Assembly (NCBI GenBank): GCA_947457615.1
Contig: CANGWK010000004.1
Coordinates: 1 to 64,000 of the forward strand
DNA length: 64,000 bases
Origin: Flavobacteriaceae bacterium
Lineage (GTDB): Bacteria > Bacteroidota > Bacteroidia > Flavobacteriales > Flavobacteriaceae
Direction of reading: 5' to 3'
In this document: positions 33,583-54,127 of the stretch, piece by piece
How the letters are laid out: each line of letters starts with the position of its first letter
Numbering within the stretch: position 1 is the first letter of the stretch
Notes under the pieces: generated by a model
The model's database searches: none
What the model saw: the letters and a program-made list of their open reading frames with translations, nothing else
What the model was told of the DNA's origin: nothing
Translations under genes and position numbers: made by a program

Positions 33583-34932
33583 ATGAAAAAAACAAGTACT
33601 TTTTTAATTTTATTCATGACATTCCTTTTGAATGCACAAACTAACCCAATTATTACAAGTTGGTTGCAAAATACAACTGGCATTACTGGAAGACATTATG
33701 TTGCTGGGAACTCAACAGCTATAACAGATGCTGTTCAAGCAAATGTGCAAACAGTACAATACAATTCTACCAATGTGTATGTTTCGGCTACGGGAATTCC
33801 GGCATATATTACGGGTCCTTTTCAAGATGGTAATCCATCTTTAGCAACTGCTCAAAATAAGATTTTCAAGTTTCCAATAGCACCTACTCAAAACACTGGA
33901 ACTGCAACAGCAACTTCAGGTGGAAATATTGGGATTTTCAAAAATGGAGTGGCTTTATTTGATTATCGTGATGGAGTAGCTTGGAATAATACTACTCAGT
34001 CACTTTGTGGAGGGCCAGGATTCACTCCATGTCCAGGCGGACCTGGAACAACACAAGCATGGAATAGAGATGCAATTCCTGCAGAACGTGCAGGTTTTGA
34101 TTGTGCAAAAGCACATCCAGCTATGGGAAATTATCACCACCACCAAAATCCAAGTGCTTTTAATTTAGATTTAAATGTTTTATCTACAGTTTGCAACACT
34201 TACCCTTCAGATGGATTATATGTTGTTAATGCGTCTGAACATTCACCACTTTTAGGTTTTGCTTATGATGGTTTTCCAATATACGGAGCTTATGCATACA
34301 CTAACACAGATGCAACCGGTGGGATCTCAAGAATGAAATCAAGTTATCAATTAAAAAATCAAACTACTAGAACTAATGGACCAACTGTGGGTCAAGTTGT
34401 TGGTACCCAAACTTTATTTAATGGCTACTTTAGAGAAGATTATGAATATGTTGCTCACCCTGGAGATGCTACCTATTTAGATATTCACAATGGACGTTTT
34501 TGTAAAACTCCAGAATATCCGGATGGTATTTATTGTTATTTTACTACTGTTGATGCGAATCATAATTCAAGTTATCCTTATGTAGTAGGACCTACTTATT
34601 ATGGAAATGTAGTTGCAGCCACCGTTACAACCGTTCCTGCCGGAACAACAACTTACACACAACTTTCTAATGATTTGTTTGAAAATAAAGAATTTAAAGT
34701 TGTTATAGCTCCAAATCCAGCTCAAGATTTTATAGCAATACAAACTCAAATGGCCGAAAAAGATTATAAAGTTGAGCTTATTGATGAGTTAGGTAAAACA
34801 ATTAAAACATTAAAGATTCTTCAAGGAAGTACACTTTCAATTATAGAAACAGACACAGTTCACAGTGGCGTTTATTTTGTTAGAATTTCCGATGGAATAA
34901 ATAATAAATCAACTAAAGTCATAATTGAATAA
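33583..34932 (+). CDS. YHYH-domain secreted protein with T9SS sorting domain
   Basis: GNYHHHQNP, LLGFAYDGFPIYGAYAYTN (YHYH-family signature), C-term VIAPNPAQDFIAIQ...STKVIIE. Confidence 0.82.
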   Translation: MKKTSTFLILFMTFLLNAQTNPIITSWLQNTTGITGRHYVAGNSTAITDAVQANVQTVQYNSTNVYVSATGIPAYITGPFQDGNPSLATAQNKIFKFPIAPTQNTGTATATSGGNIGIFKNGVALFDYRDGVAWNNTTQSLCGGPGFTPCPGGPGTTQAWNRDAIPAERAGFDCAKAHPAMGNYHHHQNPSAFNLDLNVLSTVCNTYPSDGLYVVNASEHSPLLGFAYDGFPIYGAYAYTNTDATGGISRMKSSYQLKNQTTRTNGPTVGQVVGTQTLFNGYFREDYEYVAHPGDATYLDIHNGRFCKTPEYPDGIYCYFTTVDANHNSSYPYVVGPTYYGNVVAATVTTVPAGTTTYTQLSNDLFENKEFKVVIAPNPAQDFIAIQTQMAEKDYKVELIDELGKTIKTLKILQGSTLSIIETDTVHSGVYFVRISDGINNKSTKVIIE

Positions 34933-35265: not shown

Positions 35266-37359
35266 ATGAAAAAAATTACTTTTATTTTTCTTTTTTTAAC
35301 TTCTGTAATAGGTTTTTCTCAAAATCTAGTGACAAATGGAGATTTCCAAACAGGATTTTCAACACCATGGTATGGTAATGCAGCAAACGCAGTTGATATC
35401 GATACCAATGGAGGCGGTGCATTTGTAAATCAGGCAAACGTAACAGCAGTAAGTAATCCTTGGGATGTAAATTTAAGTCAAGAAATTTTATTGGAAAATG
35501 GTAGAACTTATGCATTGACTTTCGATGCTTTTACTGATGCAATAACAGGAACACGAACTATTTTGAGTGGTTTAGGACAAACTGGTGCTCCCTATACTTC
35601 TTTAACTTCAACAACAACTTTGACATCTACTCCGCAGACATTTAGCTACCAAATAACAATAAGTTATGGCAATACGGTTGCTGATAGAGTTTTATTTGAT
35701 ATGGGCGCAGCTACTGGGTATGTTTTTATTGACAATGTATCTGTTGTAGAAGTAACAACCACTTGTAATAATGGTGTACAAGATGGTGATGAAACAGGTG
35801 TAGACTGTGGTGGATCTTGTCCTGCATGTGCAGTTTCACCTACAGTAGCCGCACCAGTACCTACTCGTAATGCAGTAGATGTTGTTTCTCTTTATAGTGA
35901 TTCATACGTTAGTGTTGCAACAGATTTTAATCCTAATTGGGGTCAATCAGGAACTGTAAATACTACTTTTAACCCAACAGGAACTGGAACTAACTATGCA
36001 ATGGCATACACTAATTTTAATTACCAAGGTACTTACTTAACTCAAACAAATGCAGCTAATATGGAGTATTTGCATATAGATATTTGGACCAATAATGCTA
36101 CCTCTGTAAAAGTATCTCCAATTAATAATGGAACTGGTGTTGGAGAATACCTTGTTAATATTCCTTTAGTTAATGGTGGATGGAGTAGTGTAGATTTGCC
36201 TAAGAGCGCTTTTGTTGGTATGACATGGGATTCAGTATTTCAATTAAAATTTGACGGACAAACAGGAGTTTCTCCTTCAACTATTTACTTAGATAATATT
36301 TATTTCTGGAAAACTGCTGCGCCTTCTGGTACTCCGTTAATAGGAAACTTTATAGTTCCAGCAAAAAATCTTGGAGATGCAGCATTTGCTCTAACAGCAC
36401 CTTCAAGTAATAGCACAGGTTCTTTTTCATACACAAGCAGCAATTTAGCTGTGGCAACAATTTCAGGAAGTACAGTAACAATTGTAGGAGCCGGTACTTC
36501 TATAATAACTGCAACACAAGCAGCAGCAGCTCCATATATTTCAGGAAGTGTTTTTGGTAATTTAATTGTAACAGAAGTGCCATTAATAGCTGCACCAACT
36601 CCTATGGCAAGAAATGCTTGGGATGTAATTTCTCTTTACAGTAATGCTTATTCTAATACAACAATTAATGATTGGTCAGCTGGAATTGGTTGGGGTGGTT
36701 TAGCGCCTATAACTGATTTACTAATTGCAGGTAATGATACTAAAAAAATTGCTTTTGGTAACTTTATTGGTGTGGATTTTGGTGCAGGTAATCATTTTGA
36801 TGCAACTAATATGACAACTTTTCACATGGATTTTTGGATACCAAGCGCAACTGATTTGACTGGTAAAGTATTGAACCCTAAATTTTCTTGTTGGACATCT
36901 GATACTTCTGGAGAAACATCAAATTTCTTGTTAACTTATCTTCCATCAGTTAACGGTTCTTGGGCTTCAATAGAAGCGCCTATATCTACATTTACTGCGG
37001 GAAGTAGCAATCCAAATATTAGAAATAACGTTGCTCAGTTTTTACTTTCATCTAATTTAGGAGTTGTATATGTTGATAATATTTATTTATACAGACCGGC
37101 AACAGCAATGGCAACCGATACTTTCAATACTTCAAATGTAAAATTATATCCAAATCCAGCATCTACTAGTTTAACTATTGAGGCTAACAATTCTATAGAA
37201 AGCATAGCTATTTACAATATTCTAGGTCAAGAGGTAATTAGTAAAACCCCAATGTCAAATTCTACGATAATGGATGTTTCAAATCTTGAAAATGGACTAT
37301 ATTTTGTAAATAGTACAATAGATGGTAAATTGTCTACTACAAAATTCGTTAAAAATTAA
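35266..37359 (+). CDS. Secreted multi-module carbohydrate-binding-like protein with Ig-like domain and T9SS sorting domain
   Basis: N-terminal CBM-like region, CNNGVQDGDETGVDCGGSCPAC linker, two VxSLYSxxY modules, C-term LYPNPASTSLTIE...STTKFVKN. Confidence 0.8.
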   Translation: MKKITFIFLFLTSVIGFSQNLVTNGDFQTGFSTPWYGNAANAVDIDTNGGGAFVNQANVTAVSNPWDVNLSQEILLENGRTYALTFDAFTDAITGTRTILSGLGQTGAPYTSLTSTTTLTSTPQTFSYQITISYGNTVADRVLFDMGAATGYVFIDNVSVVEVTTTCNNGVQDGDETGVDCGGSCPACAVSPTVAAPVPTRNAVDVVSLYSDSYVSVATDFNPNWGQSGTVNTTFNPTGTGTNYAMAYTNFNYQGTYLTQTNAANMEYLHIDIWTNNATSVKVSPINNGTGVGEYLVNIPLVNGGWSSVDLPKSAFVGMTWDSVFQLKFDGQTGVSPSTIYLDNIYFWKTAAPSGTPLIGNFIVPAKNLGDAAFALTAPSSNSTGSFSYTSSNLAVATISGSTVTIVGAGTSIITATQAAAAPYISGSVFGNLIVTEVPLIAAPTPMARNAWDVISLYSNAYSNTTINDWSAGIGWGGLAPITDLLIAGNDTKKIAFGNFIGVDFGAGNHFDATNMTTFHMDFWIPSATDLTGKVLNPKFSCWTSDTSGETSNFLLTYLPSVNGSWASIEAPISTFTAGSSNPNIRNNVAQFLLSSNLGVVYVDNIYLYRPATAMATDTFNTSNVKLYPNPASTSLTIEANNSIESIAIYNILGQEVISKTPMSNSTIMDVSNLENGLYFVNSTIDGKLSTTKFVKN

Positions 37360-37378: not shown

Positions 37379-37410
37379 AAAGCACGTTATTTAATTATAA
37401 CGTGCTTTTT
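37379..37410 (+). terminator. Intrinsic terminator
   Basis: AAAGCACGTTAT-TTAATT-ATAACGTGCTTT perfect hairpin followed by T run. Confidence 0.85.
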
Positions 37411-37485
37411 TTTACTTTATATTTTATATTTATTAGTATAATATATATCTTTATTGCTGTTAAATTTTTAATTACAGATAAAAAT

Positions 37486-40305
37486 ATGCCCCAGATATTT
37501 TCTTTTAATAAATTATTACTATTCAGTTTATTATTTTCATTATTTGGATTCTCCCAAGAATTACCTCCAATAATAAAATATAATCCTATTACCTACAATG
37601 CTGGTAATCAAAACTGGATGGTATCTCAAGATAAAAACCATATTCTATATTTTGCGAATAATGAAGGATTATTAGAATATAATGGTTCGGTTTGGAATTT
37701 ATATAACTCACCTAATGAGACAATAATTAGATCTGTTAAGGTTATAGACGATTTGATTTATACAGGTAGTTACATGGAGTTTGGTTACTGGAAAAGAATG
37801 ACTAATGGTAGGTTATCCTATTTTTCTTTGAGTAAAAAGATAAAAAATAAAATTATTGACGACGAGCAGTTTTGGAATATTTTAAACTATGACAAATGGG
37901 TAGTTTTTCAATCTTTAAATAGAATTTATATTTACGACTTAGAAAGTAAAAATTTTAAAATAATTAATCCCAGTAACAGTATTTCAAAGGTTTTTAAAAC
38001 AGAAAATGCTATTTATTTTCAAGTATTAAATGAAGGATTATTTGAAATTGAAAATGGTAAAAGTAAATTAGTTTCAGATGATTTAATTTTTAAAAACAAT
38101 AAAATTGTCAATATTTATCAGGACAATAATGGTTTAATTATTCATACTCAAACAAACGGTTTTTTTAGATTTAGTAATAAAATAATTTCTGCTTATAGTA
38201 CTTCGGCAGATGCGGAATTAAATCATTCAAGTGTTTATAGTAGTTGTCAACTAAATAACGGTAATTTCGCGGTAGGAACTATCTCCGATGGTATATTTAT
38301 TATTTCAAAATCAGGAAAAATAGAATATCATATTTCCCAAAACAATGGTTTAAGCAATAATACGATTCTTTCTTTATTTGAAGATTTTGATAAGAATTTA
38401 TGGATAGGTTTAGACAATGGAATAAATTGTATAAATATACAGTCTCCAGTGAAAAGTTTTTCTGATGACACAGGAAAACTAGGAACTGTATATGCTTCTA
38501 TACTATTTAAAGGAAAACTATACGTAGGTACTAATCAAGGATTGTTTTGTAGAGATTATAATAGTAAGGATTCTTTCCAATTTATTGCAGGCACAAAAGG
38601 TCAAGTATGGTCTTTATTTGTAAACCAAGACACTCTTTTTTGTGGCCACGATTCAGGAACTTTTATAATTGAAAATAGTACTGCTAAATGCATATTTAAT
38701 CAATCTGGAACTTGGAAATTCCAAACAGTCCCAAATAAAAATTTATTGCTTCAAGGCAACTATTATGGTATCTCAGTTTTGGAAAAAAACAATAATCAAT
38801 GGGTTTTCAGAAATAAGATTAAAGGATTTGATTATTCGTCTAAATATTTTGAACTAAATTCAACTAACCAAGTTTATGTTAGTCACGAATATAAAGGAAT
38901 TTTTAAATTCACTACTGATCTTAATTTTACCAAAGCCGAAAAAGTCAGTAAGCTTAATTCTCCTAAAAAGGGTAAAAATGCAAGTTTAATTAAATATAAC
39001 AATATTATTTATTACGCCTACAAAGATGGTGTCTATAAGCTAAATAATAAAAATAATATTTTTGAAAAAGACACTATTTTAAGTACTATGTTTACTCAAG
39101 ATGAGTTTACTTCTGGCAAAATGATAGTAGATAAATCGAATAAAATTTGGTTTTTTTCTAAGAATTATATCTATTATTTTTATAGAAATAAATTAAACTA
39201 TAAACTAAAGCAAAATACAATTCCAATCCCTTCCAAATTTACCAACTCATTAACTGGTTATGAGAATATTTCGCAACTTAATGACTATGAATACTTTATT
39301 GGAACTACTGATGGATATTATACCATTAATTTAAATGAATTAAGCTTTAAAAACTACACTGTTTTTATCTCTAATGTAAGTAGTAATAAATTAAATGAAA
39401 AAGCTAGAGATATTTCTATTACTGATTCAGTAGAATTACATTACGATGAAAACAATGTTGCTTTTAATTATTCTGTAGCAGAATTTAATAAATATATTAA
39501 CGCCGAGTACCAATATAAATTAGAAGGTTTTCAGGAGAATTGGAGTCAATGGAGTACAAAATCTAGTATCAATTTTAAAAATTTATCTCCGGGAGATTAC
39601 AAATTTATTGTTAGATCTAAAATAGCAAATTCGAATCTTGAAAACAGTGCGGTTTATATGTTTACAATTTTAAAGCCCTGGTATTTAACTAATTTTGCTT
39701 TATTAATTTATTTTCTTGGGCTAATTTACCTAGCTTTTTGGATAAATAAAAGATATAAAAATTACTACCATAAACAAAGAGTAAAACTCATTGAAGAAAA
39801 TAATTTGTTGCTTGAAATAAAAGAATTAGAAAACGAACAACAATTAATGAAATTAAGAAATGACCAATTAGCATTGGACATGGATGCAAAAAATAAAGAG
39901 CTTGCATTTTCAACTATGAGTTTATTAAAAAAAGATGAATTACTTTCTGTTATTAAAGAGGATTTAAAGAAAACAGCAGATGAAGGAAATAAGAGCATGA
40001 GCATTAAATCGGTTATTTCTACCATCACAAAAAATATTAATCATGAAGATTCTTGGAATATATTTAAGGATGCATTCGATACTGTAGATAAAGACTTCTT
40101 GAAAAAATTAAAAGTCCTTCATCCTTTACTAACCCCTAATGATTTGCGACTTTGCGCTTATCTTAGATTAAATCTTTCTTCCAAAGAAATTGCCCCTTTA
40201 CTCAATATTTCTGTTAGAAGTGTTGAGATAAAACGATATCGTTTGCGTAAAAAAATGAATTTAAACCACGAAAACGGTTTAGCAGAGTATATTTTGTCTG
40301 TTTAG
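37486..40305 (+). CDS. Membrane-anchored one-component regulator: propeller sensor + Y_Y_Y + TM + coiled coil + LuxR-type HTH
   Basis: NLWIGLDNGINCI repeats, YQYKLEGFQENWSQWS...LSPGDYKFIVRS (Y_Y_Y), TM, C-term LRLNLSSKEIAPLLNISVRSVEIKRYRLRKKMNL; no histidine kinase domain. Confidence 0.88.
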   Translation: MPQIFSFNKLLLFSLLFSLFGFSQELPPIIKYNPITYNAGNQNWMVSQDKNHILYFANNEGLLEYNGSVWNLYNSPNETIIRSVKVIDDLIYTGSYMEFGYWKRMTNGRLSYFSLSKKIKNKIIDDEQFWNILNYDKWVVFQSLNRIYIYDLESKNFKIINPSNSISKVFKTENAIYFQVLNEGLFEIENGKSKLVSDDLIFKNNKIVNIYQDNNGLIIHTQTNGFFRFSNKIISAYSTSADAELNHSSVYSSCQLNNGNFAVGTISDGIFIISKSGKIEYHISQNNGLSNNTILSLFEDFDKNLWIGLDNGINCINIQSPVKSFSDDTGKLGTVYASILFKGKLYVGTNQGLFCRDYNSKDSFQFIAGTKGQVWSLFVNQDTLFCGHDSGTFIIENSTAKCIFNQSGTWKFQTVPNKNLLLQGNYYGISVLEKNNNQWVFRNKIKGFDYSSKYFELNSTNQVYVSHEYKGIFKFTTDLNFTKAEKVSKLNSPKKGKNASLIKYNNIIYYAYKDGVYKLNNKNNIFEKDTILSTMFTQDEFTSGKMIVDKSNKIWFFSKNYIYYFYRNKLNYKLKQNTIPIPSKFTNSLTGYENISQLNDYEYFIGTTDGYYTINLNELSFKNYTVFISNVSSNKLNEKARDISITDSVELHYDENNVAFNYSVAEFNKYINAEYQYKLEGFQENWSQWSTKSSINFKNLSPGDYKFIVRSKIANSNLENSAVYMFTILKPWYLTNFALLIYFLGLIYLAFWINKRYKNYYHKQRVKLIEENNLLLEIKELENEQQLMKLRNDQLALDMDAKNKELAFSTMSLLKKDELLSVIKEDLKKTADEGNKSMSIKSVISTITKNINHEDSWNIFKDAFDTVDKDFLKKLKVLHPLLTPNDLRLCAYLRLNLSSKEIAPLLNISVRSVEIKRYRLRKKMNLNHENGLAEYILSV

Positions 40306-40618: not shown

Positions 40619-43600
40619 ATGAGAAAAATTATCATTCTATTATCACTTTTCATTTACTCTTATTCTGCATATTCTCAAGCAGATAGAGTAGTTGTTGAAA
40701 AGAATAATGCCGGTTTTAAATTGAAAGTCAATGGAAATGACTTTATAATAAATGGAATGAATTGGGATTACTATCCAATTGGAACAAACTATTCCTACAG
40801 TTTATGGAAACAATCGGATGAGGTTATCAAGGCTGCCTTGGATACAGAAATGGGTTTGCTGAAAAATATGGGTGTAAATACTATTAGGCAATACACTGGG
40901 ATTCAGCCTAAATGGATAACTTATATATTTCAAAAATATGGTATTTATACAGTTTTAAATCATTCTTTTGGTAGATATGGACTTACATTAAATGGTACTT
41001 GGGTACCAAATACAGATTATTCTAATGCACTAACCCAAGAATTGTTACTTAAAGAAACTAAAGAACTTGTTTCTGAATATAAAAATACACCAGGTTTGCT
41101 ACTATTTTTATTAGGAAACGAAAATAACTATGGTTTGTTTTGGGATGGAGCAGAATCAGAAAATATTCCATTAGAAGATAGAAAATCTACTGTTAGAGCT
41201 AAAGTAATGTACAAATTATTTAATCATGCAACTCTACAAATGAAAAAAATTGATAGCTCACATCCAATAGCTATTTGTAATGGAGATTTACTTTTTTTAG
41301 ATATAATTGCTAAAGAGTGCAAGGATGTAGATATTTTAGGAACTAACATGTATCGAGGTGTTTCATTTACAGATGCTTTCCAAAAAGTGAAAGAAAAATT
41401 TGATAAACCATTAATGTTTTCTGAATTTGGTGCAGATTCTTTCAATACTTTAGATAATGCCGAAGATCAAAAATCACAAGCATATTATATGGTAAACAAT
41501 TGGAAAGAAATATACGAAAATGCTTCAGGTCTAGGTAAAGCTGGTAATTCAATTGGAGGTTTTACTTTTCAATTTAGTGATGGATGGTGGAAATTTGGTC
41601 AAACAAAGAATTTAGATATTCATGATAATAATGCTTCTTGGTCTAACGGAGGTTACAATTTAGATTTTCAACAAGGAGAAAATAACATGAACGAAGAGTG
41701 GTTTGGTATTTGTGCCAAAGGGCCTACAAATGCCAGAGGTTTGTATACTTTATATCCACGTGCAGCTTATTACGCTTTAAAAGAAGCACATAATTTTAAT
41801 CCGTATCAAGCTGGAACTACAGTTGAAAGTACCGAAAAGTATTTTAGTACTATACAACTTATGGATGCTGTATTAAAAGCAAGAGGCGATAAAGCTGCTT
41901 TAGGTTCTAATGATACCGATATGCTTAAAGTTAGTAATTTGAGAGCAGAATTTACAACCTTTAACACTGGCGGAAGCTTAATCACCACCCCTAAAATTGC
42001 AGATCCAAATTCAACCTCCTATCCTAATAAATTAGGTTTTGATCACATGCAATCCTATTTTATTGGTGTTGAAGGGAATCCTGCACCTAATATGAAAGCC
42101 AATGTTAATGTAAGTATTCTTGGTAATGTTGCATTAAATCCAATAAATGAAATTTTCTACGAAAATAGAGGTAGAAGTCAAAATGTAAAAACCGAAAATG
42201 GAGTTGTAACTCAAAGCGATGTCAATAGAGTTCAAGTGTATAATGCCTCTTACACTTGGAATGAAAAATATTTTGATCTAAAAGGGTTTTATAGAACAGG
42301 TCATTACCATTGGGGCTATGAAGGGGATTTCTTCGGATTATATCCAGAAGCAAATTATGGTCCAAATTTAGATCTATATAATGGAGAAACTTCTGGTTTT
42401 GAATTTGAAGGGAAAAAATCTTTTGAAGGTTTAAAAGGTGCTTTAGGACCTCAATTATGGTGGGGAGCCAATCCAGCTTATCTTTTAAAATACAGTAAAA
42501 AAATCTGGAAAATAGATGCTACTGCAGTTTATCACGAAGATATATCTGATGCTAATGCGGCAACAACATCAATTGCAATTCCGCTTCCTAAAACTAGACG
42601 TGCAACTATTTATTTTAAATCAAAAATTGGTAATGTTGGTTTGGAAGTTGGTGGTATGTGGGGAGGTCAGCCATTAAATGGTAGAGCTTTTCAATTTGCA
42701 AAAGAATTAAATGGAGTTTATACTGTTTATGATGACAAAATCACAAATCAAGATAATTGGGGAGGTAAAGCAAAAATAACCTATTCAAAAGGGCGTTTTA
42801 ACATGTACACACAAGGGGCAATAATGGGATTAGTTGCTAATGGTGGTGCAGATAATACTAAAACATTCACAGGTTGGAGACTTAAAGATAGCGGAAGCGG
42901 AAACCAAACTAACTTCTTAACTGGATTTACTTACAGCATAGGTAATCTTCAAATTGCGCCAAACTTCTTATGGCAAAAACCATTAGTTGGTGCTATGCCA
43001 AACGATATTAATGCACCTGGAAGATTAAGAAATATTCAATCGGATCCTTTTGTTGTGAGATCCAATAGAGAAACTTTGGGAGGAGAATTGTTACTTACTT
43101 TCGATCCAACACCTGCAACTTGGTATTACGAATGGGATAATGATATTGCAGAAGATGCAAAATTCGCCATTAATGTTGATTTTGTTTATCGTCATTTGCC
43201 AACCACTCAAGATGCAGCAATTGGATTCTTAGTAAACCGTACTGCATTTGCTTTTCCAAATGCAACACCGGCTCACGATTTATGGGAATTAAATTCAAGA
43301 ATTGTTTCTAAAATAACTCCTGATTTAGGATTTATTACAAATCTTTATATGGGTAATGCGCAAGCAAACGGGAGCGACACTAGACTAATTGAAAGAATGG
43401 GTGGCGATATTAGATTAATCTATAAAAAAGTAAAATTAACTACCACATTAAAACTTAATGATTGGGGTCCATACGATTACCACCGTGATTTTAACTTGAC
43501 TTATCCAACTCAGTTTTCATTAGATTTATCTACTTCTGTAGGAAAGCCAAATTGGTTTATCTTACCAAATACAAAATTAGGAATAATGGGAACTTGGAGA

Positions 43601-43744
43601 TCTTTAGACAAATATTCTCCAAGATTTCTTCCAAATCAAACTGCCTCTCTTTTTGCAACACAACCAATTATAAGTCCAGTTGGATTTAGTAATGGGTCAG
43701 AGTGGGAAATTAGAACGTATGTTCACATTAATATTGGAAAATAA
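40619..43744 (+). CDS. Secreted TIM-barrel glycosidase (GH2-TIM / GH-A clan-like) fused to a probable outer-membrane beta-barrel
   Basis: N-term INGMNWDYYPIGTNYSYSLW, LLFLLGNENNYGLFW, PLMFSEFGADSF; residues about 440-1041 alternate amphipathic beta-strands ending EWEIRTYVHINIGK. Confidence 0.72.
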   Translation: MRKIIILLSLFIYSYSAYSQADRVVVEKNNAGFKLKVNGNDFIINGMNWDYYPIGTNYSYSLWKQSDEVIKAALDTEMGLLKNMGVNTIRQYTGIQPKWITYIFQKYGIYTVLNHSFGRYGLTLNGTWVPNTDYSNALTQELLLKETKELVSEYKNTPGLLLFLLGNENNYGLFWDGAESENIPLEDRKSTVRAKVMYKLFNHATLQMKKIDSSHPIAICNGDLLFLDIIAKECKDVDILGTNMYRGVSFTDAFQKVKEKFDKPLMFSEFGADSFNTLDNAEDQKSQAYYMVNNWKEIYENASGLGKAGNSIGGFTFQFSDGWWKFGQTKNLDIHDNNASWSNGGYNLDFQQGENNMNEEWFGICAKGPTNARGLYTLYPRAAYYALKEAHNFNPYQAGTTVESTEKYFSTIQLMDAVLKARGDKAALGSNDTDMLKVSNLRAEFTTFNTGGSLITTPKIADPNSTSYPNKLGFDHMQSYFIGVEGNPAPNMKANVNVSILGNVALNPINEIFYENRGRSQNVKTENGVVTQSDVNRVQVYNASYTWNEKYFDLKGFYRTGHYHWGYEGDFFGLYPEANYGPNLDLYNGETSGFEFEGKKSFEGLKGALGPQLWWGANPAYLLKYSKKIWKIDATAVYHEDISDANAATTSIAIPLPKTRRATIYFKSKIGNVGLEVGGMWGGQPLNGRAFQFAKELNGVYTVYDDKITNQDNWGGKAKITYSKGRFNMYTQGAIMGLVANGGADNTKTFTGWRLKDSGSGNQTNFLTGFTYSIGNLQIAPNFLWQKPLVGAMPNDINAPGRLRNIQSDPFVVRSNRETLGGELLLTFDPTPATWYYEWDNDIAEDAKFAINVDFVYRHLPTTQDAAIGFLVNRTAFAFPNATPAHDLWELNSRIVSKITPDLGFITNLYMGNAQANGSDTRLIERMGGDIRLIYKKVKLTTTLKLNDWGPYDYHRDFNLTYPTQFSLDLSTSVGKPNWFILPNTKLGIMGTWRSLDKYSPRFLPNQTASLFATQPIISPVGFSNGSEWEIRTYVHINIGK

Positions 43745-43752
43745 TTAAAAAT

Positions 43753-45180
43753 ATGAAAAATATGAAAAATATAAAAATCAATTATTTAAAAAACGTATTT
43801 GTATTAGCATTGCTGTCAATTGCTAATTTGAGTTGTGAAAGAAATATGTCTGATGACGCAAAACTAGCAACTTTTTCAAAAAATGGCGATGTTTTCATTG
43901 ACACATTTAGTGCTGGATTAGGTTATGGAGCTTTTGGAGGTTCAAATTATACTGCTTTTACTGTAGATACGGATGTTAAATACCAAGGATCGGCTTCCAT
44001 GAGATTTGATGTACCTAGTGTTGGGGATCCAAAAGGAGCTTACGCAGGTGGAGTATTTATTGATGGCTCAGGTCGTAACTTGACCGATTATGATGCATTA
44101 ACTTTTTGGGTTAAAGGGTCTCAAGCAGCAACAATAAATGAATTTGGTCTTGGTACTGATTTCGGCTTAAATAAATATAAAGTAACAATGCAAAATGTTC
44201 CGATTGACACCAATTGGAAAAAAATAATTATTCCAATGCCCGACGCATCTAAATTAATTCAAGAAAAAGGAATGTTTTGGTATTCTGAAGGTGCAGAAAA
44301 TAATTTGGGTTATACTTTTTGGATTGATAATGTTAAGTACGAAAAATTAGGAACTATCGCTCATAATCAACCTAAAATTATGGACGGTTTAAACTCTACT
44401 CAACAAGCATATATTGGCACTTCAATTAACTTAACAGGTCTTACAGACACCTTTAATATGCCAAATGGGATAAATCAAACTATTTCAATTGCGCCAAGTT
44501 ATTTTTCATATTTATCTTCTAACCCTAGTATTGCTTCTGTTAGCGACTCAGGAGTTATTACTGTTTTATCAAGTGGAACAGCTCTAATTACAGCTTCTCT
44601 TTCTGGCACTACTGCAGTAGGTTCTCTTACAATAAATTCCTTAGGAGCTTTTATACCCGCAACAACTCCTACACGTCCTTCCTCAAATGTAATTTCACTT
44701 TTTTCTGATAGTTATCCAAATGTTCCTGTAGATTTCTTTAATGGTTACTGGGGCGGGCAAACAACACTAACAAGTCTTTTTAGTATTAGTGTAAATAATA
44801 ATATAGACAATATTCAAAGTTATACTTCTTTAAATTATGTAGGTATTCAAACACAAAATCCTCCAATTAACGCTTCTACTATGGGTTTTTTACATTTAGA
44901 TATTTTGCCAAGAACTGCTGCTACTTCAAATTTTACAATTAAAATAAGAGATAGAGGTTCAAATGGTGTTATTGATTCTGATAATAATGGAAATGCCACT
45001 GTAGATGATAAGGAAATATCTTATCTAATTCCGGCTAATCAGCTAAGTGTTGGAACTTGGAAATCGATTGATATTCCATTAACAGGAAATATTTTAAACC
45101 AAAAAAATAATCTTGCATTAATAGTTTTTATTGGTAATAATAATTTCTTTTTAGATAATCTATATTATTATAAAAACTAA
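43753..45180 (+). CDS. Lipoprotein with carbohydrate-binding-like modules and Ig-like domain
   Basis: Lipobox-like SIANLSC; FLHLDILPRT...GTWKSIDIPLTG...FFLDNLYYYKN. Confidence 0.75.
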   Translation: MKNMKNIKINYLKNVFVLALLSIANLSCERNMSDDAKLATFSKNGDVFIDTFSAGLGYGAFGGSNYTAFTVDTDVKYQGSASMRFDVPSVGDPKGAYAGGVFIDGSGRNLTDYDALTFWVKGSQAATINEFGLGTDFGLNKYKVTMQNVPIDTNWKKIIIPMPDASKLIQEKGMFWYSEGAENNLGYTFWIDNVKYEKLGTIAHNQPKIMDGLNSTQQAYIGTSINLTGLTDTFNMPNGINQTISIAPSYFSYLSSNPSIASVSDSGVITVLSSGTALITASLSGTTAVGSLTINSLGAFIPATTPTRPSSNVISLFSDSYPNVPVDFFNGYWGGQTTLTSLFSISVNNNIDNIQSYTSLNYVGIQTQNPPINASTMGFLHLDILPRTAATSNFTIKIRDRGSNGVIDSDNNGNATVDDKEISYLIPANQLSVGTWKSIDIPLTGNILNQKNNLALIVFIGNNNFFLDNLYYYKN

Positions 45181-45207: not shown

Positions 45208-46014
45208 ATGATTCTAAAAGACATAAAATTATTTGCTTTATCTGTATTTAGTATTGTCATTGTAGGTTGTTCTACAAATGAAAAACAAACCGTAACCACC
45301 ATGACGCAATTGGTAAAACAAGATGAGTTTGATGTAGATGGTGCTCCAGATAACTCGATGTGGAGTTATGATATAGGAACAGGGAATAACGGCTGGGGAA
45401 ATAATGAATTAGAATATTATACTAGTAGACCTCAAAATGTAAAAGTAGAAGGAGGCGTATTAAAAATAACCGCTATTCAGGAGTCCTATATGGGTAAAGG
45501 ATATACTTCTGCTAGAATTACTTCTAAAAATAAGTTTGAACAGAAACACGGTCGTTTTGAAGCTCGAATTAAAATGCCTTGGGGAAAAGGTGTTTGGCCA
45601 GCTTTCTGGATGTTAGGCGCCAACTCTAGTTCAGTTTCGTGGCCTCAATGTGGCGAAATAGATATAATGGAATACCTTGGAAATAACCCTACATCTTTTT
45701 TCGGTACTGTTCATGGTCCAGGTTATGCAGGTTCAAATTCAATCTCTAAAATTTTCAATTTAACAAACGATAGATTTGATACTGATTACCATATTTTTGG
45801 GATTGAATGGGGAGAAGATTACATTAATTTCTATGTAGATGATGTATTATACAACCAAATTACTCCGGCAAAAGCTCCAGGAGAATGGGTTTTTAACCAG
45901 CCTTTTTATATAATATTGAATCTTGCCGTTGGCGGTAATTTGCCTGGTTCCCCTAATGCTGAAACGACTTTCCCGCAGACAATGCTGGTAGATTACGTAA
46001 GGGTATATAAATAG
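45208..46014 (+). CDS. GH16 family beta-glucanase (laminarinase-like), lipoprotein
   Basis: VIVGC lipobox, WPQCGEIDIMEYLG (ExDxxE catalytic motif). Confidence 0.93.
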   Translation: MILKDIKLFALSVFSIVIVGCSTNEKQTVTTMTQLVKQDEFDVDGAPDNSMWSYDIGTGNNGWGNNELEYYTSRPQNVKVEGGVLKITAIQESYMGKGYTSARITSKNKFEQKHGRFEARIKMPWGKGVWPAFWMLGANSSSVSWPQCGEIDIMEYLGNNPTSFFGTVHGPGYAGSNSISKIFNLTNDRFDTDYHIFGIEWGEDYINFYVDDVLYNQITPAKAPGEWVFNQPFYIILNLAVGGNLPGSPNAETTFPQTMLVDYVRVYK

Positions 46015-46096: not shown

Positions 46097-49000
46097 ATGA
46101 ATCAGGATTCAGATATCTTAGTTAAAAACAATTTGAAAAACACCAATAAATTTGTTTCCATGGAAATGGAAACCATTAATGGGGAGCACTACTATAAAAT
46201 AAAAAATAATGATGCAATGCGTCCTTTTTTTATGAGTATTGTAAGCGACTCTAATCATTGGATGTTTATTTCTAGTAATGGCGGACTTTCGGCAGGAAGA
46301 AAAAATTCAGAATTTGCTCTTTTTCCTTATTATACGGATGATAAAATTACCGAATCTTCTGATATAACAGGAAGTAAAACTGTTTTTCAAATTTTAATTG
46401 AAGGTGAATTATTGATTTGGGAACCTTTTTCAGAACGCTTTACCAATCAATATTCTATTACCAGAAATTTGTATAAAAATAATTATGGTAATAAAATAAT
46501 TTTTGAAGAAATCAATAATGACCTACAATTAACTTACAGATACCATTGGAATTCTAGTAATAAATACGGCTTTGTAAAAAAATCGGAACTCCTTAATCAT
46601 TCTAATAAAGAATATGAAATTTCTATTTTAGATGGACTTCAAAATATTATGCCATATGGCGTTAATACCGATTTACAGGCAACAACAAGTAACCTTGTAG
46701 ATGCATACAAAAGAAGTGAGTTACACCAAGATTCTGGTTTAGGAATTTTTGCTTTAAGTGCAATTATTGTTGATAAAGCAGAACCTAGCGAAGCGTTAAA
46801 AGCCAATATTGTTTGGTCTTTAGGTATGGATAATCCAACGCATTTGGTTTCCTCATTACAACTTTCCAATTTCAGAAAAAAACAAAAAGTAGCTCCGGAA
46901 AATGATATTAAAGGCGAAAAAGGAGCTTATTTTTTAAATTCAGAAATAATATTAAAATCCAATTCTCAAAAAGGTTGGATGCTAATAGCCAACGTTAATC
47001 AAGACCATTCGGATATTGTTCAAATTATTGATACGATTAAGAAGGATAAAAATATTGAAAATCTAGTAATTGAGGATATTGAACTGGGAACTCAAAAACT
47101 AATAGCAATTAATGCATCTTCGGATGGACTTCAAGCAACAGCAGATCATTTAAGAGATACCAGACATTTTTCGAATACCTTATTTAATATCATGCGCGGC
47201 GGAATATTTGATTATAATTATCAAATTGAAAAGCCCGATTTTATTAATTATTTAAAAAAAGCAAATACTATTGTTTTCCAAAATTTTGAAAAACAAATTA
47301 ATATTCTTCCTGAATTATTATCCTTACAAACATTAAAAGAATTTGCAACAAAACAAAATGATGCTGACTTAGAACGTTTGTGTTTTGAATATTTACCGTT
47401 AAAATTCAGCCGACGACACGGAGATCCAAGTCGCCCTTGGAATAAATTTTCCATCAATACCCAAAGCGAAATTGACGGTTCTAAAATATTAGATTATCAA
47501 GGAAACTGGCGTGATATATTTCAGAACTGGGAAGCTTTGGCGCACTCGTATCCTGAATTTATTGATAGCATGATTCATAAATTCTTAAACGCTTCTACAT
47601 TTGATGGATACAATCCGTATCGTGTTACTAAAGATGGATTCGATTGGGAAACTATTGAACCAGACAATCCTTGGTCTTACATTGGATATTGGGGCGATCA
47701 TCAAATTATTTATTTGTTGAAATTTTTAGAATTCATTGAAAAACATGAGCCAAATAAGTTAGATTCTTATTTTGAAAACGAATGTTTTGTATATGCTGCT
47801 GTTCCTTACACAATAAAGCCTTACAAAGATATATTGAAAAATCCTAAGGATACTGTGGGTTATAATCACGAATGGGAAAAACTAATAAATCAAAGAAAAC
47901 AAGCAATAGGTGCCGATGGTGCTCTATTAAATAGTAATGATAAGGAAATTTATCATGTGAATTTCATCGAAAAGATATTGGCTACGGTGTTAGCAAAAAT
48001 GTCCAATTTCATTCCGGAAGGTGGTATTTGGATGAATACACAACGCCCAGAGTGGAACGATGCCAATAATGCTTTGGTAGGTAACGGGGTTTCAATGGTA
48101 ACGCTTTATTATTTGAGACGTTTCTTGAAATTCTTCCAGCACATATTAGAAAATTCTAACTTAGAAAACATTAAAATTTCGAATGAAATGGTAGAATTTT
48201 ACCATGAAGTAAGAGAATGTTTAGTTGAAAATAAACACTTGCTTTCAGGTAAAATTGATGATAAATCACGCAGAATAATTTTAGATCGATTAGGAAAAGC
48301 GGCTTCTGATTATCGTTATCAAATTTATAATAGTGGGTTTTGGGGTAAAAAAAGAACCCATTCTATGGCCGGTCTAAAAACATTTACCCAAGTATGTTTG
48401 GACTTTATTGATCATTCTATAGACGCCAATAAAAGAGTAGATAATTTGTACCATGCCTATAATTTAGTTACCATAAAAAGCGATAGCGAGATCTCCATTT
48501 CCTATTTAAGTGAAATGTTAGAAGGTCAAGTTGCAGTGCTAAGTTCTGGTTATTTAAGTTCTAAGGAAGCATTAAAAGTGTTAGATAGTTTAAAAAACAG
48601 TAAATTATTCAGAGAAGATCAATATAGTTATTTACTGTATCCAAATAAAGAATTGCCTAAATTTTTAGCAAAAAATACTATTGCAAATGATTCAGTTTCT
48701 CAATCGGAATTATTAACTCTGTTGGTTGCAAAAAAGAACACACAAGTTATAAAAATGGATTGCGATGGGAATTATCATTTTAATGGTAATTTCAATAATG
48801 CAAACGATTTGAAAAAAGCTTTAGAGCAATTAAAAAATATAAAAGAATACCAAACTTTAGTAGAAAAAGAAGCTGATAAAATAACTGAAATTTTCGAAAA
48901 TGTTTTTAATCACAAATCATTTACTGGAAGATCTGGAACATTTTATGGCTATGAAGGATTAGGTTCTATTTATTGGCACATGGTTTCGAAACTGCAATTA

Positions 49001-49573
49001 GCAGTGCAGGAATGTTGCTTTAAAGCCCAAGACGAAAAAGAATCTCCAGAAATTATAGGACGTTTATTAGAACATTATTATGAAATAAATGCAGGAATTG
49101 GATTGCATAAATCACCTGCTCTACATGGAGCATTTCCAACAGATCCTTATTCGCACACACCTGCAGGTAAAGGTGCACAACAACCCGGAATGACTGGGCA
49201 AGTTAAAGAAGATGTATTAAGTCGTTTTGGTGAACTTGGAGTTTTTGTAAAAAATGGATGTTTAAATTTTGCTCCTTACTTGTTAAGAAAAGAAGAATTT
49301 TTGTCCAATGATTTCACATTTAACTATGTAGATGTGTTCATGAATCAAAAATCTATTGAGTTAATTAAAAATTCACTTGGTTTTACTTATTGTCAAATTC
49401 CTGTTATTTATAAAATAGGAGAAAAAAGAAATATTGAAATTTATTTTAACGATTCAACAATTAAAAAGTTAGAGACTTTATATCTGGATAATGAAACAAG
49501 CCAACATTTTTTTGCACGAACAGGTCAAATAAATAAAATCATTGTGAATATTGTAGACAATGAATTAAAATAA
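46097..49573 (+). CDS. Cytosolic GH94/GH149/GH161-type glycoside phosphorylase candidate
   Basis: No signal peptide, 1158 aa, TQRPEWNDANNALVGNGVSMVTLYYLRR resembles the DWND catalytic region of GH94-clan phosphorylases; GRSGTFYGYEGLGSIYWHM, LHGAFPTDPYSHTPAGKGAQQPGMTGQVKED; glucanase neighbours. Confidence 0.7.
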   Translation: MNQDSDILVKNNLKNTNKFVSMEMETINGEHYYKIKNNDAMRPFFMSIVSDSNHWMFISSNGGLSAGRKNSEFALFPYYTDDKITESSDITGSKTVFQILIEGELLIWEPFSERFTNQYSITRNLYKNNYGNKIIFEEINNDLQLTYRYHWNSSNKYGFVKKSELLNHSNKEYEISILDGLQNIMPYGVNTDLQATTSNLVDAYKRSELHQDSGLGIFALSAIIVDKAEPSEALKANIVWSLGMDNPTHLVSSLQLSNFRKKQKVAPENDIKGEKGAYFLNSEIILKSNSQKGWMLIANVNQDHSDIVQIIDTIKKDKNIENLVIEDIELGTQKLIAINASSDGLQATADHLRDTRHFSNTLFNIMRGGIFDYNYQIEKPDFINYLKKANTIVFQNFEKQINILPELLSLQTLKEFATKQNDADLERLCFEYLPLKFSRRHGDPSRPWNKFSINTQSEIDGSKILDYQGNWRDIFQNWEALAHSYPEFIDSMIHKFLNASTFDGYNPYRVTKDGFDWETIEPDNPWSYIGYWGDHQIIYLLKFLEFIEKHEPNKLDSYFENECFVYAAVPYTIKPYKDILKNPKDTVGYNHEWEKLINQRKQAIGADGALLNSNDKEIYHVNFIEKILATVLAKMSNFIPEGGIWMNTQRPEWNDANNALVGNGVSMVTLYYLRRFLKFFQHILENSNLENIKISNEMVEFYHEVRECLVENKHLLSGKIDDKSRRIILDRLGKAASDYRYQIYNSGFWGKKRTHSMAGLKTFTQVCLDFIDHSIDANKRVDNLYHAYNLVTIKSDSEISISYLSEMLEGQVAVLSSGYLSSKEALKVLDSLKNSKLFREDQYSYLLYPNKELPKFLAKNTIANDSVSQSELLTLLVAKKNTQVIKMDCDGNYHFNGNFNNANDLKKALEQLKNIKEYQTLVEKEADKITEIFENVFNHKSFTGRSGTFYGYEGLGSIYWHMVSKLQLAVQECCFKAQDEKESPEIIGRLLEHYYEINAGIGLHKSPALHGAFPTDPYSHTPAGKGAQQPGMTGQVKEDVLSRFGELGVFVKNGCLNFAPYLLRKEEFLSNDFTFNYVDVFMNQKSIELIKNSLGFTYCQIPVIYKIGEKRNIEIYFNDSTIKKLETLYLDNETSQHFFARTGQINKIIVNIVDNELK

Positions 49574-49587
49574 ATTGCAAGTTGTAA

Positions 49588-50850
49588 ATGAAATTAAGAT
49601 ATAAACATATTATTTTATTAGTTGTGTTATCTTTTTTTTATGCAAATAAAATAGGTTCACAAACCAATAATAGAAGGCCAAAAATAAAAATTGTGAATGC
49701 AAAAGATATTCTTGGAAATCCTAACTATATGGCATTATGTTATGGCGGTTATAGAACAAGTTCTAGAGAAGTACAACCTTCAATAGATCAGATAAAAGAA
49801 GATTTAAAAATCATGTCTGCCATGAACATTAAGTTAATTAGGACTTATAATGTTCATTTTGTTGAGGCGGCTAACATATTAAAATCTATTAATGAATTAA
49901 AAAAGGAAGATGCTAATTTTGAAATGTATGTAATGCTTGGTGCATGGATAGATTGTAAAAATGCTTGGACAGATAAAATACTAGATCACGATATTGAAAG
50001 TGAAAGAAATCCAAAAGAAATTCAAACTGCTGTAGAATTAGCTAATCAATATCCTGACATTGTTAAAATAATTGCAGTTGGAAATGAAGCAATGGTAAAA
50101 TGGGCAGAAAATTATTATGTGCAACCAAAAATAATTTTGAAATGGGTAAATTATTTGCAAGATTTAAAAAAGAAAAATAAAATATCCAAAGAGTTATGGA
50201 TTACAAGTTCTGACGATTTTGCTTCTTGGGGCGGAGGAGATAAAATCTATCATACTAAAGATTTGGAAGATTTAATTAAGGCTGTAGATTATGTTTCGAT
50301 GCATACTTATCCTTTTCATAATACGCATTATACATCAAAATTTTGGAAGCTACCAAGTAATGAAAATTCATTATCGGATATAGATAAAGTTAAAGCAGCA
50401 ATGACAAGAGCTCAAGAGTTTGCCGAAATGCAATACACTAATGTAAAAAATTATGTAAATAGTGTTAGCCCAAATAAACCAATTCATATTGGCGAAACGG
50501 GATGGGCTTCTAGTTCGGATGGATTTTATGGAAATGAAGGTTCCAAAGCTTCTGACGAATACAAGCAAAGGCTATATTATGAAAGCATGCGAAATTGGAC
50601 AACAAAACAAGGAGTCAGCTGTTTTTTCTTTGAAGCTTTTGATGAAACATGGAAAGACAATGCAAATCAAAATGGTTCTGAAAATCATTTCGGACTTTTT
50701 ACAGTTGATGGAAAGGCAAAATATGCATTATGGAACCAAGTAGATGCCGAAACATTTAAGAGTTTAAAAAGAGACGGAAATTCCATTGTAAAAACATTTT
50801 CGGGAGATGAAGAATTGTTAAAAAAAACAGTTTTAACACCACCAAACTAA
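49588..50850 (+). CDS. GH17-like beta-1,3-glucanase / glucanosyltransferase
   Basis: ALCYGGYR...IKLIRTYNVH, IIAVGNEAMVKW, HIGETGWASSSDG. Confidence 0.78.
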   Translation: MKLRYKHIILLVVLSFFYANKIGSQTNNRRPKIKIVNAKDILGNPNYMALCYGGYRTSSREVQPSIDQIKEDLKIMSAMNIKLIRTYNVHFVEAANILKSINELKKEDANFEMYVMLGAWIDCKNAWTDKILDHDIESERNPKEIQTAVELANQYPDIVKIIAVGNEAMVKWAENYYVQPKIILKWVNYLQDLKKKNKISKELWITSSDDFASWGGGDKIYHTKDLEDLIKAVDYVSMHTYPFHNTHYTSKFWKLPSNENSLSDIDKVKAAMTRAQEFAEMQYTNVKNYVNSVSPNKPIHIGETGWASSSDGFYGNEGSKASDEYKQRLYYESMRNWTTKQGVSCFFFEAFDETWKDNANQNGSENHFGLFTVDGKAKYALWNQVDAETFKSLKRDGNSIVKTFSGDEELLKKTVLTPPN

Positions 50851-50905: not shown

Positions 50906-52381
50906 ATGTCAAATAATATTACAAAAACAAAAGCGATTGTCCCAATGGGACAAAAAATTGCCTTTGGATTAGGTATGTTAGCCAATCAAATGTTTCCTGC
51001 TGCTTTAGGTATTTTTATGGTTGTCTTAGTTCAAAATTTAGGTTTTCCAGCTTGGATGTGGGGAATTTTATTCTTTTTGCCACGAATTTTTGATGCTTTT
51101 ATCGATCCTATTATGGGTTTCATCTCAGATAATACTAGGTCTAGATGGGGGAGAAGAAGACATTATGTTTTTTTGGGTGCAATAATAATGGGGTTTTCGT
51201 TTGTAGCAATGTGGCAATTATACGGAGAAAATGGAGTTCAATATAATTTTATTTACTTTCTTTTATGGTCGTTTATTTTTTATTTAGGACTTACAATATT
51301 TAGTGTGCCCTATGTAGCTATGGGATATGAAATGAGTGATGATTTTCATGAACGCACAAGTATTATGGCTATCTCACAATGGATAGGGCAATGGGCATGG
51401 GTAATTGCTCCTTGGTTTTGGGTTATTATGTACGATCCCAATTGGTTTCCTAGTGCACATTCTATTAATCCTTTAAAACCAGATGCAGATACAGCACTCG
51501 CAACAAGAACTTTGGCAGTATGGGTAGGTGTTTTATGTATGTTTTTAGCTATGATTCCTGCTATTTTTATTAAGAGTAAGTCTACCAAAAATGAAGATAG
51601 TTTTTCACCACTAACTTTTAAAACTATCAGAGGTAGTTTTAAAGAAATATTAAAAAGTTTTAAAGAAGCTTTTAGTAACAAACCTTTTACAAAACTTTGC
51701 ATTTCTACGTTCTTAATTTTTAATGCTTTTAATACTGTTGCGGGTTTCACTTTCTTTATTGTGGTTTATTACCTTTTTAACGGAAGCACTGTTGATGCTG
51801 GTATTTGGCCTACACTTTTTGGATGTGTAGGTGCATTAGCAACTACATTTATTGTGATTCCGATTGTAGCTTTTATTTCAAAAAAAATGGGTAAAAAAGA
51901 TGCTTTTTTATTATGTCAAGGGATTTCTGTTTTTGGTTACATTTTACTTTGGTTTCTTTTTATCCCAGGTAAACCTTACATGTTTTTGTTTGCTCTTCCT
52001 TTCTTTTCTTTTGGTATTGGAAGTTTGTTTACTTTAATGATGTCAATGACAGCAGATGTTTGTGATATGGATGAGTTAACTTCTGGTAAACGAAGAGAAG
52101 GAATATTTGGTGCTATTTATTGGTGGATGGTAAAATTTGGTTTTGCAATAGCGGGATTATTAACTGGTGTAATTATGTCAGCGGTACACTTTGATCCAAA
52201 TGTATCTGTTCAAGCAGATGGAGCAGTTACTGGATTAAGAATTTTTTTCTCAGGTATACCAATATTAGGAACATTAATAGCTATGTGGATAATGAGAAAT
52301 TATGACTTAACAGAAGATAAAGCTAAAGAAATTAAAGAAGAGTTAATGGCAAGAAAACAACAACAATCGCCTAGCCATTAA
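50906..52381 (+). CDS. MFS / GPH-type sugar:cation symporter
   Basis: 12 TM, FDAFIDPIMGFISDNTRSRWGRRRHYVFLGA, ADVCDMDELTSGKRREGIFGAIYWWMVKFG. Confidence 0.92.
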   Translation: MSNNITKTKAIVPMGQKIAFGLGMLANQMFPAALGIFMVVLVQNLGFPAWMWGILFFLPRIFDAFIDPIMGFISDNTRSRWGRRRHYVFLGAIIMGFSFVAMWQLYGENGVQYNFIYFLLWSFIFYLGLTIFSVPYVAMGYEMSDDFHERTSIMAISQWIGQWAWVIAPWFWVIMYDPNWFPSAHSINPLKPDADTALATRTLAVWVGVLCMFLAMIPAIFIKSKSTKNEDSFSPLTFKTIRGSFKEILKSFKEAFSNKPFTKLCISTFLIFNAFNTVAGFTFFIVVYYLFNGSTVDAGIWPTLFGCVGALATTFIVIPIVAFISKKMGKKDAFLLCQGISVFGYILLWFLFIPGKPYMFLFALPFFSFGIGSLFTLMMSMTADVCDMDELTSGKRREGIFGAIYWWMVKFGFAIAGLLTGVIMSAVHFDPNVSVQADGAVTGLRIFFSGIPILGTLIAMWIMRNYDLTEDKAKEIKEELMARKQQQSPSH

Positions 52382-52423: not shown

Positions 52424-54127
52424 ATGAAAAATAGTATACTTTATAAAATTGTTCTTTCTTTTTTTCTTTTTTGTCAGATCGGTTTTTCTCAGGTTGACGT
52501 TGTTTATTCTGATTTAGTCTGGTCAGATGAATTTAATACGAATGGCGCTGTAAATTCAAATAATTGGTTTCATCAAACCCAATTGCCTGCAGGTGGAAGT
52601 TGGTATAATAATGAAGAACAACATTATACCAATCTATTAACTAATTCATTTGTAAATGCGGGAATGTTAAATATCGTTGCTAAAAAAGAAAATTTTACTG
52701 ATCAAGGGATTACTAAAGAATATACTTCAGCACGATTAAATTCTAAATTTGCTTTCAAATACGGACGAATAGATGTTAGAGCAAAGTTACCAATTGCGTC
52801 TGGTACTTGGCCAGCGATATGGATGTTAGGAAAAAACATTAATGAACCAGGAGGTTATTTTTCATCTTCTTTTGGTACCACAAATTGGCCTGCTTGTGGT
52901 GAAATTGATATAATGGAGCATGGAATTTTTCCATCACAATCTATAAATTATGTGCAAAGTACCTTGCATACACCCTCTTCATATGGAGGTTCAGTAAATA
53001 ATGGCGGTACAATCGCTTCCGATTTAGCTAATAATTATCATGTGTATTCTTTGAATTGGTCACCATTTCAAATGTCCTTTTTATTAGATGGAGTTGTTTA
53101 TTACACTTATAATCCATCCATCAAAGACGCAACTACTTGGCCATTTGATAATGAGCAATATATATTATTAAATGTTGCTTTGGGAGGTGTTGCAGGAATA
53201 ATTCCCTCTAATTATACTCAATCTTCAATGTTGATTGACTATGTTAGAGTATATCAAAATACAATCGTAGACGCGGAGCCCCCTCTAAATTTTACTGCTT
53301 CCATCGGTGCTGTAACTAGTACATCAGTTGAGTTATTATTAAATGCAACTGATAATTCAGGAACAATTGGTTATAATATTGCTTATGGAACTTCTTCTAA
53401 TGGAATTTCAGGAACATCCGGAATTCAAAAATCGGTAATTATATCTGGTTTAAATCCTAATACACTATATGATTTTACTGTTACAGCAAATGATTTATCT
53501 GGAAATTATGCAGCAAATAATCCAATTGTTGTTAGCACTACCACTTTACCAAACTCCACTTTAATTTGTTCTGGAACTTCTAGTTTGGCGCAAAATGGAT
53601 CTTTTACTTCGGGTTATAATTATGAATTCCAAACTAACGGAAACGATGTAAAAATCACCTACGGATTATTAGATACAGATAAAGTAGGGGTAGTTGCTTT
53701 TTTATGGAAACAATCTCCTTTTTCTGAGTTGCAAATGACTAACGTTTCAGGTAATATATTTACTCGTACAATTACGGGTCAAACGATTGGTTCTACAATA
53801 AATTACGGAGTTAAATTTGCTTTTGCTGGCGGAATGTCGGTAACCAATTACTATTCTTATGTTGTGGGGAGCGCTTGTATGATGGGTACATCCCAATTTT
53901 CAGAATTAAACGAAATTTCTTTTCCAAACCCTGTTTCAGATAGAGTTAATATCAACTCTAATATAACTTTAGATAAAATAGAAATTTACAGCATTTTAGG
54001 CAATCTAGTATTGAAAACCGAAACTAATACAAGTTCAATAGATGTATCTAGTTTATCAACTGGAGTTTATTTAATAACTATTTACTCCGGTTCTGAAAAA
54101 ATAACAAAAAAAATTATTGTTCAATAA
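52424..54127 (+). CDS. GH16 beta-glucanase with FN3, extra beta-module and T9SS sorting domain
   Basis: WPACGEIDIMEHG; FN3 segment; NDVKITYGLLDTDKVGVVAFLW; C-term SFPNPVSDRVNINS...TKKIIVQ. Confidence 0.92.
   Translation: MKNSILYKIVLSFFLFCQIGFSQVDVVYSDLVWSDEFNTNGAVNSNNWFHQTQLPAGGSWYNNEEQHYTNLLTNSFVNAGMLNIVAKKENFTDQGITKEYTSARLNSKFAFKYGRIDVRAKLPIASGTWPAIWMLGKNINEPGGYFSSSFGTTNWPACGEIDIMEHGIFPSQSINYVQSTLHTPSSYGGSVNNGGTIASDLANNYHVYSLNWSPFQMSFLLDGVVYYTYNPSIKDATTWPFDNEQYILLNVALGGVAGIIPSNYTQSSMLIDYVRVYQNTIVDAEPPLNFTASIGAVTSTSVELLLNATDNSGTIGYNIAYGTSSNGISGTSGIQKSVIISGLNPNTLYDFTVTANDLSGNYAANNPIVVSTTTLPNSTLICSGTSSLAQNGSFTSGYNYEFQTNGNDVKITYGLLDTDKVGVVAFLWKQSPFSELQMTNVSGNIFTRTITGQTIGSTINYGVKFAFAGGMSVTNYYSYVVGSACMMGTSQFSELNEISFPNPVSDRVNINSNITLDKIEIYSILGNLVLKTETNTSSIDVSSLSTGVYLITIYSGSEKITKKIIVQ

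Follow-up and report, generated by a model that had tools for sequence, protein, structure and literature searches.

A glycosidase joined to a predicted outer-membrane beta-barrel in beta-1,3-glucan loci of Bacteroidota

A leading flow of marine carbon passes through laminarin, and SusCD systems account for how Bacteroidota take it up. Laminarin PUL 2 of Formosa encodes a GH16 enzyme (FORMB_m24690), GH17A (24720), a GH30 enzyme (24730) and an MFS-GH17B fusion (24740); GH30, GH17A and GH17B act sequentially on laminarin, and the GH16 enzyme was seen in laminarin cultures only (PMC6246565). The authors of that study noted that a transporter-CAZyme fusion such as MFS-GH17B was previously undescribed (PMC6246565). 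Here we describe a gene in a 64,000-nucleotide stretch of a Flavobacteriaceae contig (the window) whose product is very probably, on the strength of structural models, a fusion of a glycosidase and an outer-membrane barrel.

The gene (40619..43744, + strand, as are all features given below in the form start..end) is one unbroken frame encoding 1041 amino acids, and the peptides quoted in the sequence-only reading were all found in it. A signal peptide without a lipobox (residues 1–20, ending SAYSQ; 40619..40678; modelled as a helix at 2–17) is followed by a catalytic (beta/alpha)8 domain that includes the C-terminal helix FxxIxLMDAVLKARGDKA (residues 21–424; 40679..41890). A short linker (residues 425–435; 41891..41923), with no plug or TonB-receptor domain detected, leads into an outer-membrane beta-barrel of 24 predicted strands (residues 436–1041; 41924..43741), identified from models, Foldseek matches and residue alternation; its C-terminal strand is WEIRTYVHINIGK. 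An assembly artefact was rejected as the source of the fusion, since 78 of 79 checked relatives read through end to end as a single open frame, at 64–91% identity.

The only Pfam match of the 1041-residue protein was to GH2_C (residues 73–281, E 8e-7), and nothing in NCBIfam exceeded its cut-off. Together with the signal peptide and the TIM domain of the model, this match bears out the earlier claim that the N-terminal ~400 residues are a secreted TIM-barrel glycosidase. The domain has the features of clan GH-A, namely a (beta/alpha)8 barrel, an acid/base glutamate after strand 4 within an NE motif, and a nucleophile glutamate after strand 7. The predicted acid/base E168 (GNENN; 41120..41122) aligns with the NE motif of GH158, and the predicted nucleophile E269 (SEFGAD; 41423..41425) aligns with its EFG; N167, E168 and E269 were invariant across 79 sequences. 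A profile built from enzyme domains, both fused and standalone, matched GH158 (1e-10), GH157 (1e-7) and many GH2 enzymes in the PDB, the GH158 match spanning ~190 columns at 14% identity with GH157 and GH2 close behind. Foldseek with the whole protein returned GH158 and GH157 endo-beta-1,3-glucanases first, then GH2 enzymes, then TonB receptors. The enzyme half is thus a GH-A enzyme near GH158/GH157 that is not filed in GH158, and it appears to form a group separate from both families. Its substrate is likely to be beta-1,3-glucan. We rejected membership of GH2: the TIM domain begins directly after the signal peptide, jelly-roll and Ig domains are absent, and the match is to GH2_C only. The corresponding gene has been labelled a GH2 glycosidase (PMC13188888), a label that does not fit because the N-terminal domains of GH2 are missing; the assignment of that gene to the same family as the fusion rests on the matching locus rather than on a sequence check. 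The GH0 of PMC10108472 may also belong to this family.

We found at least 572 relatives of the fusion among genome contigs, of which 80 were fetched; a filter that screens for stretches of N removed L078. Two oddly titled MAGs, L030 and L078, may be contaminated or mislabelled. Among 395 sampled Bacteroidota genomes, 64 matched the protein, in some cases just weakly and by way of the TIM domain. A profile of the barrel matched 40, always with the enzyme; no barrel without an enzyme was found in these 395 genomes, save for contig-edge or fragmentary pieces. The gene is intact in hundreds of Bacteroidota genomes, labelled simply "GH2 glycosidase".

Upstream of the fusion lies a propeller/Y_Y_Y/HTH regulator (37402..40305), and a Y_Y_Y regulator homologue was present in 61 of 81 loci. 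Directly downstream is a lipoprotein with CBM11/CBM30-like and Big_2 domains (43753..45180); this partner gene adjoined the fusion in 80/80 loci, counting loci with sequence downstream of the fusion on the same strand. The partner reads C-E-R-N-M-S-D-D from the lipid cysteine, and most partner lipoproteins have C-E-R-x-x-S-D/E-D/E, which we take to resemble the Bacteroidota surface-export signal. The locus continues with a GH16 lipoprotein (45208..46014), a GH149 beta-1,3-glucan phosphorylase without a signal peptide (46097..49573; NCBIfam equivalog, 1813.7 bits against a cut-off of 1150), a GH17 enzyme with a signal peptide (49588..50850), a GPH/MFS inner-membrane sugar symporter (50906..52381) and a secreted GH16-fn3 protein with a T9SS sorting tail (52424..54127). 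In related loci the partner was followed by GH16 (70 loci), GH149 (49), GH17 (42), MFS (29) and often GH30; the GH30 gene of this genome lies elsewhere, outside the fusion locus. Just upstream of the regulator, the window also encodes a T9SS-sorted CBM4_9 protein similar to the partner lipoprotein (35266-37359), and near the glucan locus a YHYH-domain protein with a T9SS tail (33583-34932), with an equal-length neighbour at that place in loci L003 and L004.

The sequence-only reading had remarked that SusC and SusD are missing from the locus, and indeed the genome has only two SusD genes, which, like every TonB-receptor plug that was detected, are located outside the window. Across fused loci, absence of SusC/D beside the fusion is typical but not absolute: SusD occurred within 10 kb in 9 of 80. 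Since some loci have such a pair too, the fusion need not replace one. A SusD or a TonB-receptor plug was found near 3 of 8 loci with the enzyme alone. That the fusion simply replaces SusCD was not borne out (Fisher p 0.07, from counts that are not like for like, plugs having been scanned in enzyme-only loci alone).

A MAG titled Formosa sp. Hel1_33_131 encodes, in this order, the fusion, the partner, GH16, a PKD/CBM protein, GH149, GH17, GH30 and an MFS-GH17 protein. The gene order from GH16 onwards in this MAG matches that of the published laminarin PUL 2, FORMB_24690 to 24740, and from this order we infer that the fusion gene lies about two genes before 24690. The MFS-GH17 protein of the MAG has 778 amino acids (L150:14722-17058); the MFS gene of the window has no GH17 half.

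The enzyme occurred alone in nine sampled genomes, as proteins that stop exactly where the barrel would start. These homologues have ordinary signal peptides or lipoboxes but lack both the acidic surface signal and a T9SS tail, and the partner lipoprotein gene does not adjoin their genes. They lie mostly beside GH149 and are scattered in the tree (L111-L119). In the enzyme-domain tree, standalone enzymes were interspersed among fused ones, several of those rows being long-branched, and a single clade of all fused forms was rejected (AU p 5e-10). The barrel has probably been lost several times, because enzyme-only forms are scattered among fused forms. A distant relative (28%) stands beside GH149 and three GH17 genes (L125:4148-5203), so that the enzyme family reaches beyond the fused group. 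Near one enzyme-only gene we noted an 1124-residue protein without a Pfam match (L134:15591-18962).

The ~600-residue C-terminal part had been described as lacking Ig, CBM or T9SS signatures, and we found no meaningful Pfam family for residues 412–1041 among 52 homologues, and no sequence relative among PDB structures. By sequence, the barrel appears to belong to no known family. An AlphaFold model of the full-length protein built with 79 homologues (mean pLDDT 77.7, pTM 0.58, a value that leaves the relative position of the two domains unfixed) gave a TIM barrel to residue ~400, helices at 402–429 and 24 long antiparallel strands at 436–1040. The C-terminal domain modelled alone gave the same strands, with pTM 0.76. 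The predicted fold is that of an outer-membrane beta-barrel, with an antiparallel meander, alternating residues, long outer loops and short inner turns: loops averaged 22 residues after odd strands versus 5 after even ones (p=3e-4), and in/out hydrophobic alternation was 1.81 versus 0.99 +/- 0.15 for shuffled strands, a value that supports the fold without being independent proof because the strands were taken from the model; strands 1–2 alternate weakly. An array of soluble beta-sandwiches such as CBMs, rather than a membrane protein, is a common architecture of secreted glycosidases, and a Pfam porin match is absent here. Such an array is nevertheless highly improbable: both models gave the barrel, with its loop pattern and hydrophobic alternation, all 50 of the 50 best Foldseek matches listed for the barrel alone were outer-membrane barrels and none were sandwiches, with modest TM-scores of 0.3–0.4, and no CBM match occurred in the 52 members. 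The two structure predictions, the Foldseek matches and conservation across Bacteroidota thus agree with the original proposal of a glycosidase tethered to an outer-membrane barrel.

That proposal placed cleavage at the point of entry of the glucan. The tether itself stands; the side of the membrane is specified further by the barrel. By the established rule for bacterial barrels, both ends lie on the periplasmic side when the strands are even in number and the long loops follow the odd ones; both termini of the barrel are therefore expected to be periplasmic. The enzyme-only homologues should be periplasmic too, because they have neither acidic surface signal nor T9SS tail. The enzyme domain thus probably faces the periplasm, and it would cut at the exit of the pore rather than at the surface. 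Surface display, in which the barrel is an autotransporter-like anchor and the enzyme cuts glucan outside before uptake, would account for the order of an N-terminal passenger and a C-terminal barrel and for the helix (414–429) ahead of strand 1. We consider it unlikely, given that loop parity places the N-terminus inside, that enzyme-only forms lack a surface-sorting tail, and that the helix belongs to the enzyme, since enzyme-only homologues have it as well. A Type V autotransporter was rejected: there was no Pfam autotransporter match (PF03797-type, 12 strands), and 24 strands are predicted. A barrel that serves only as an anchor, fixing the enzyme to the periplasmic face of the outer membrane near other import machinery and conducting nothing, is a slightly less probable reading still. 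It draws on the channel function being a prediction, and on the enzyme living without a barrel in nine genomes, with a TonB receptor or SusD near some of those loci. A lipid anchor would however be far cheaper than 600 residues, and the CBM partner lipoprotein is always found with the barrel and never next to enzyme-only genes. In addition, several long loops of the barrel (residues 563–584, 613–619, 737–762 and 950–960) are rich in aromatic residues and 90–99% conserved, suggesting contact with a ligand.

We regard an outer-membrane protein for glucan entry that carries its own enzyme as the best explanation, and as a reasonably probable one. The earlier term "own porin" survives in part: an outer-membrane barrel is predicted, and we lean modestly towards its being a glucan channel. 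A plugless barrel of about 24 strands would span the outer membrane with the GH-A domain hanging beneath it in the periplasm. GH16 enzymes at the surface would cut laminarin-type beta-1,3-glucan, and chains or oligosaccharides would enter through the barrel, aided by the adjoining carbohydrate-binding lipoprotein. The tethered enzyme would cut the emerging chains, which would keep the gradient inward; GH17 would continue the cutting, the MFS symporter would import short oligosaccharides, and cytosolic GH149 would phosphorolyse them. The cell thus probably cleaves chains of algal laminarin right where their entry pore opens to the inside. So wide a plugless barrel would leak unless blocked, and would need inward-folded loops or the partner lipoprotein as a lid; the chances that the partner is that lid seem about even.

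In a text search of the main text of open-access papers, we found no published description of the fusion protein. Its C-terminal domain represents a family of outer-membrane barrels that Pfam does not cover. If the fusion is a channel, it would be a widespread, overlooked import route in loci known as laminarin-induced, its coupling of cutting to transport would be directly testable, and both membranes in the Formosa operon would have a glycosidase-fused transporter.

Several described systems resemble parts of this protein. GH158 (BuGH158, 6PAL; GH158(Pro), 9ORO) and GH157 give the best structural and profile matches to the enzyme half, and their catalytic NE and EFG motifs align with it, but these endo-beta-1,3-glucanases have no barrel and share only ~14% identity with the window enzyme. 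TonB-dependent receptors/SusC, the top Foldseek class for the barrel, are likewise large outer-membrane barrels in glucan loci with a glycan-binding lipoprotein alongside; the barrel described here differs in having no plug, CarbopepD_reg domain, SusD partner or sequence similarity to them, and 24 predicted strands rather than 22. Assignment to this class was rejected, with no PF07715 match and just 11 residues between the enzyme and strand 1. Maltoporin, chitoporin and OprD-type porins are also plugless outer-membrane barrels for passive entry, but have 16–18 strands, no fused enzyme and no sequence similarity to the barrel. We tentatively propose, as a possibility, that Bacteroidota take beta-glucan through the outer membrane by a third route, in addition to SusCD and simple porins. 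The route would be a new type of barrel, TonB-independent and without a plug, that depends on a CBM lipoprotein at its mouth; with a glucanase covalently attached at the exit, hydrolysis itself would drive uptake. MFS-GH17B (FORMB_24740) likewise joins a transporter to a glycosidase that acts on laminarin, and it comes from the same type of operon, but it is an alpha-helical transporter of the inner membrane with an enzyme of another GH family (PMC6246565); within that operon, the fusion described here would be the corresponding protein of the outer membrane.
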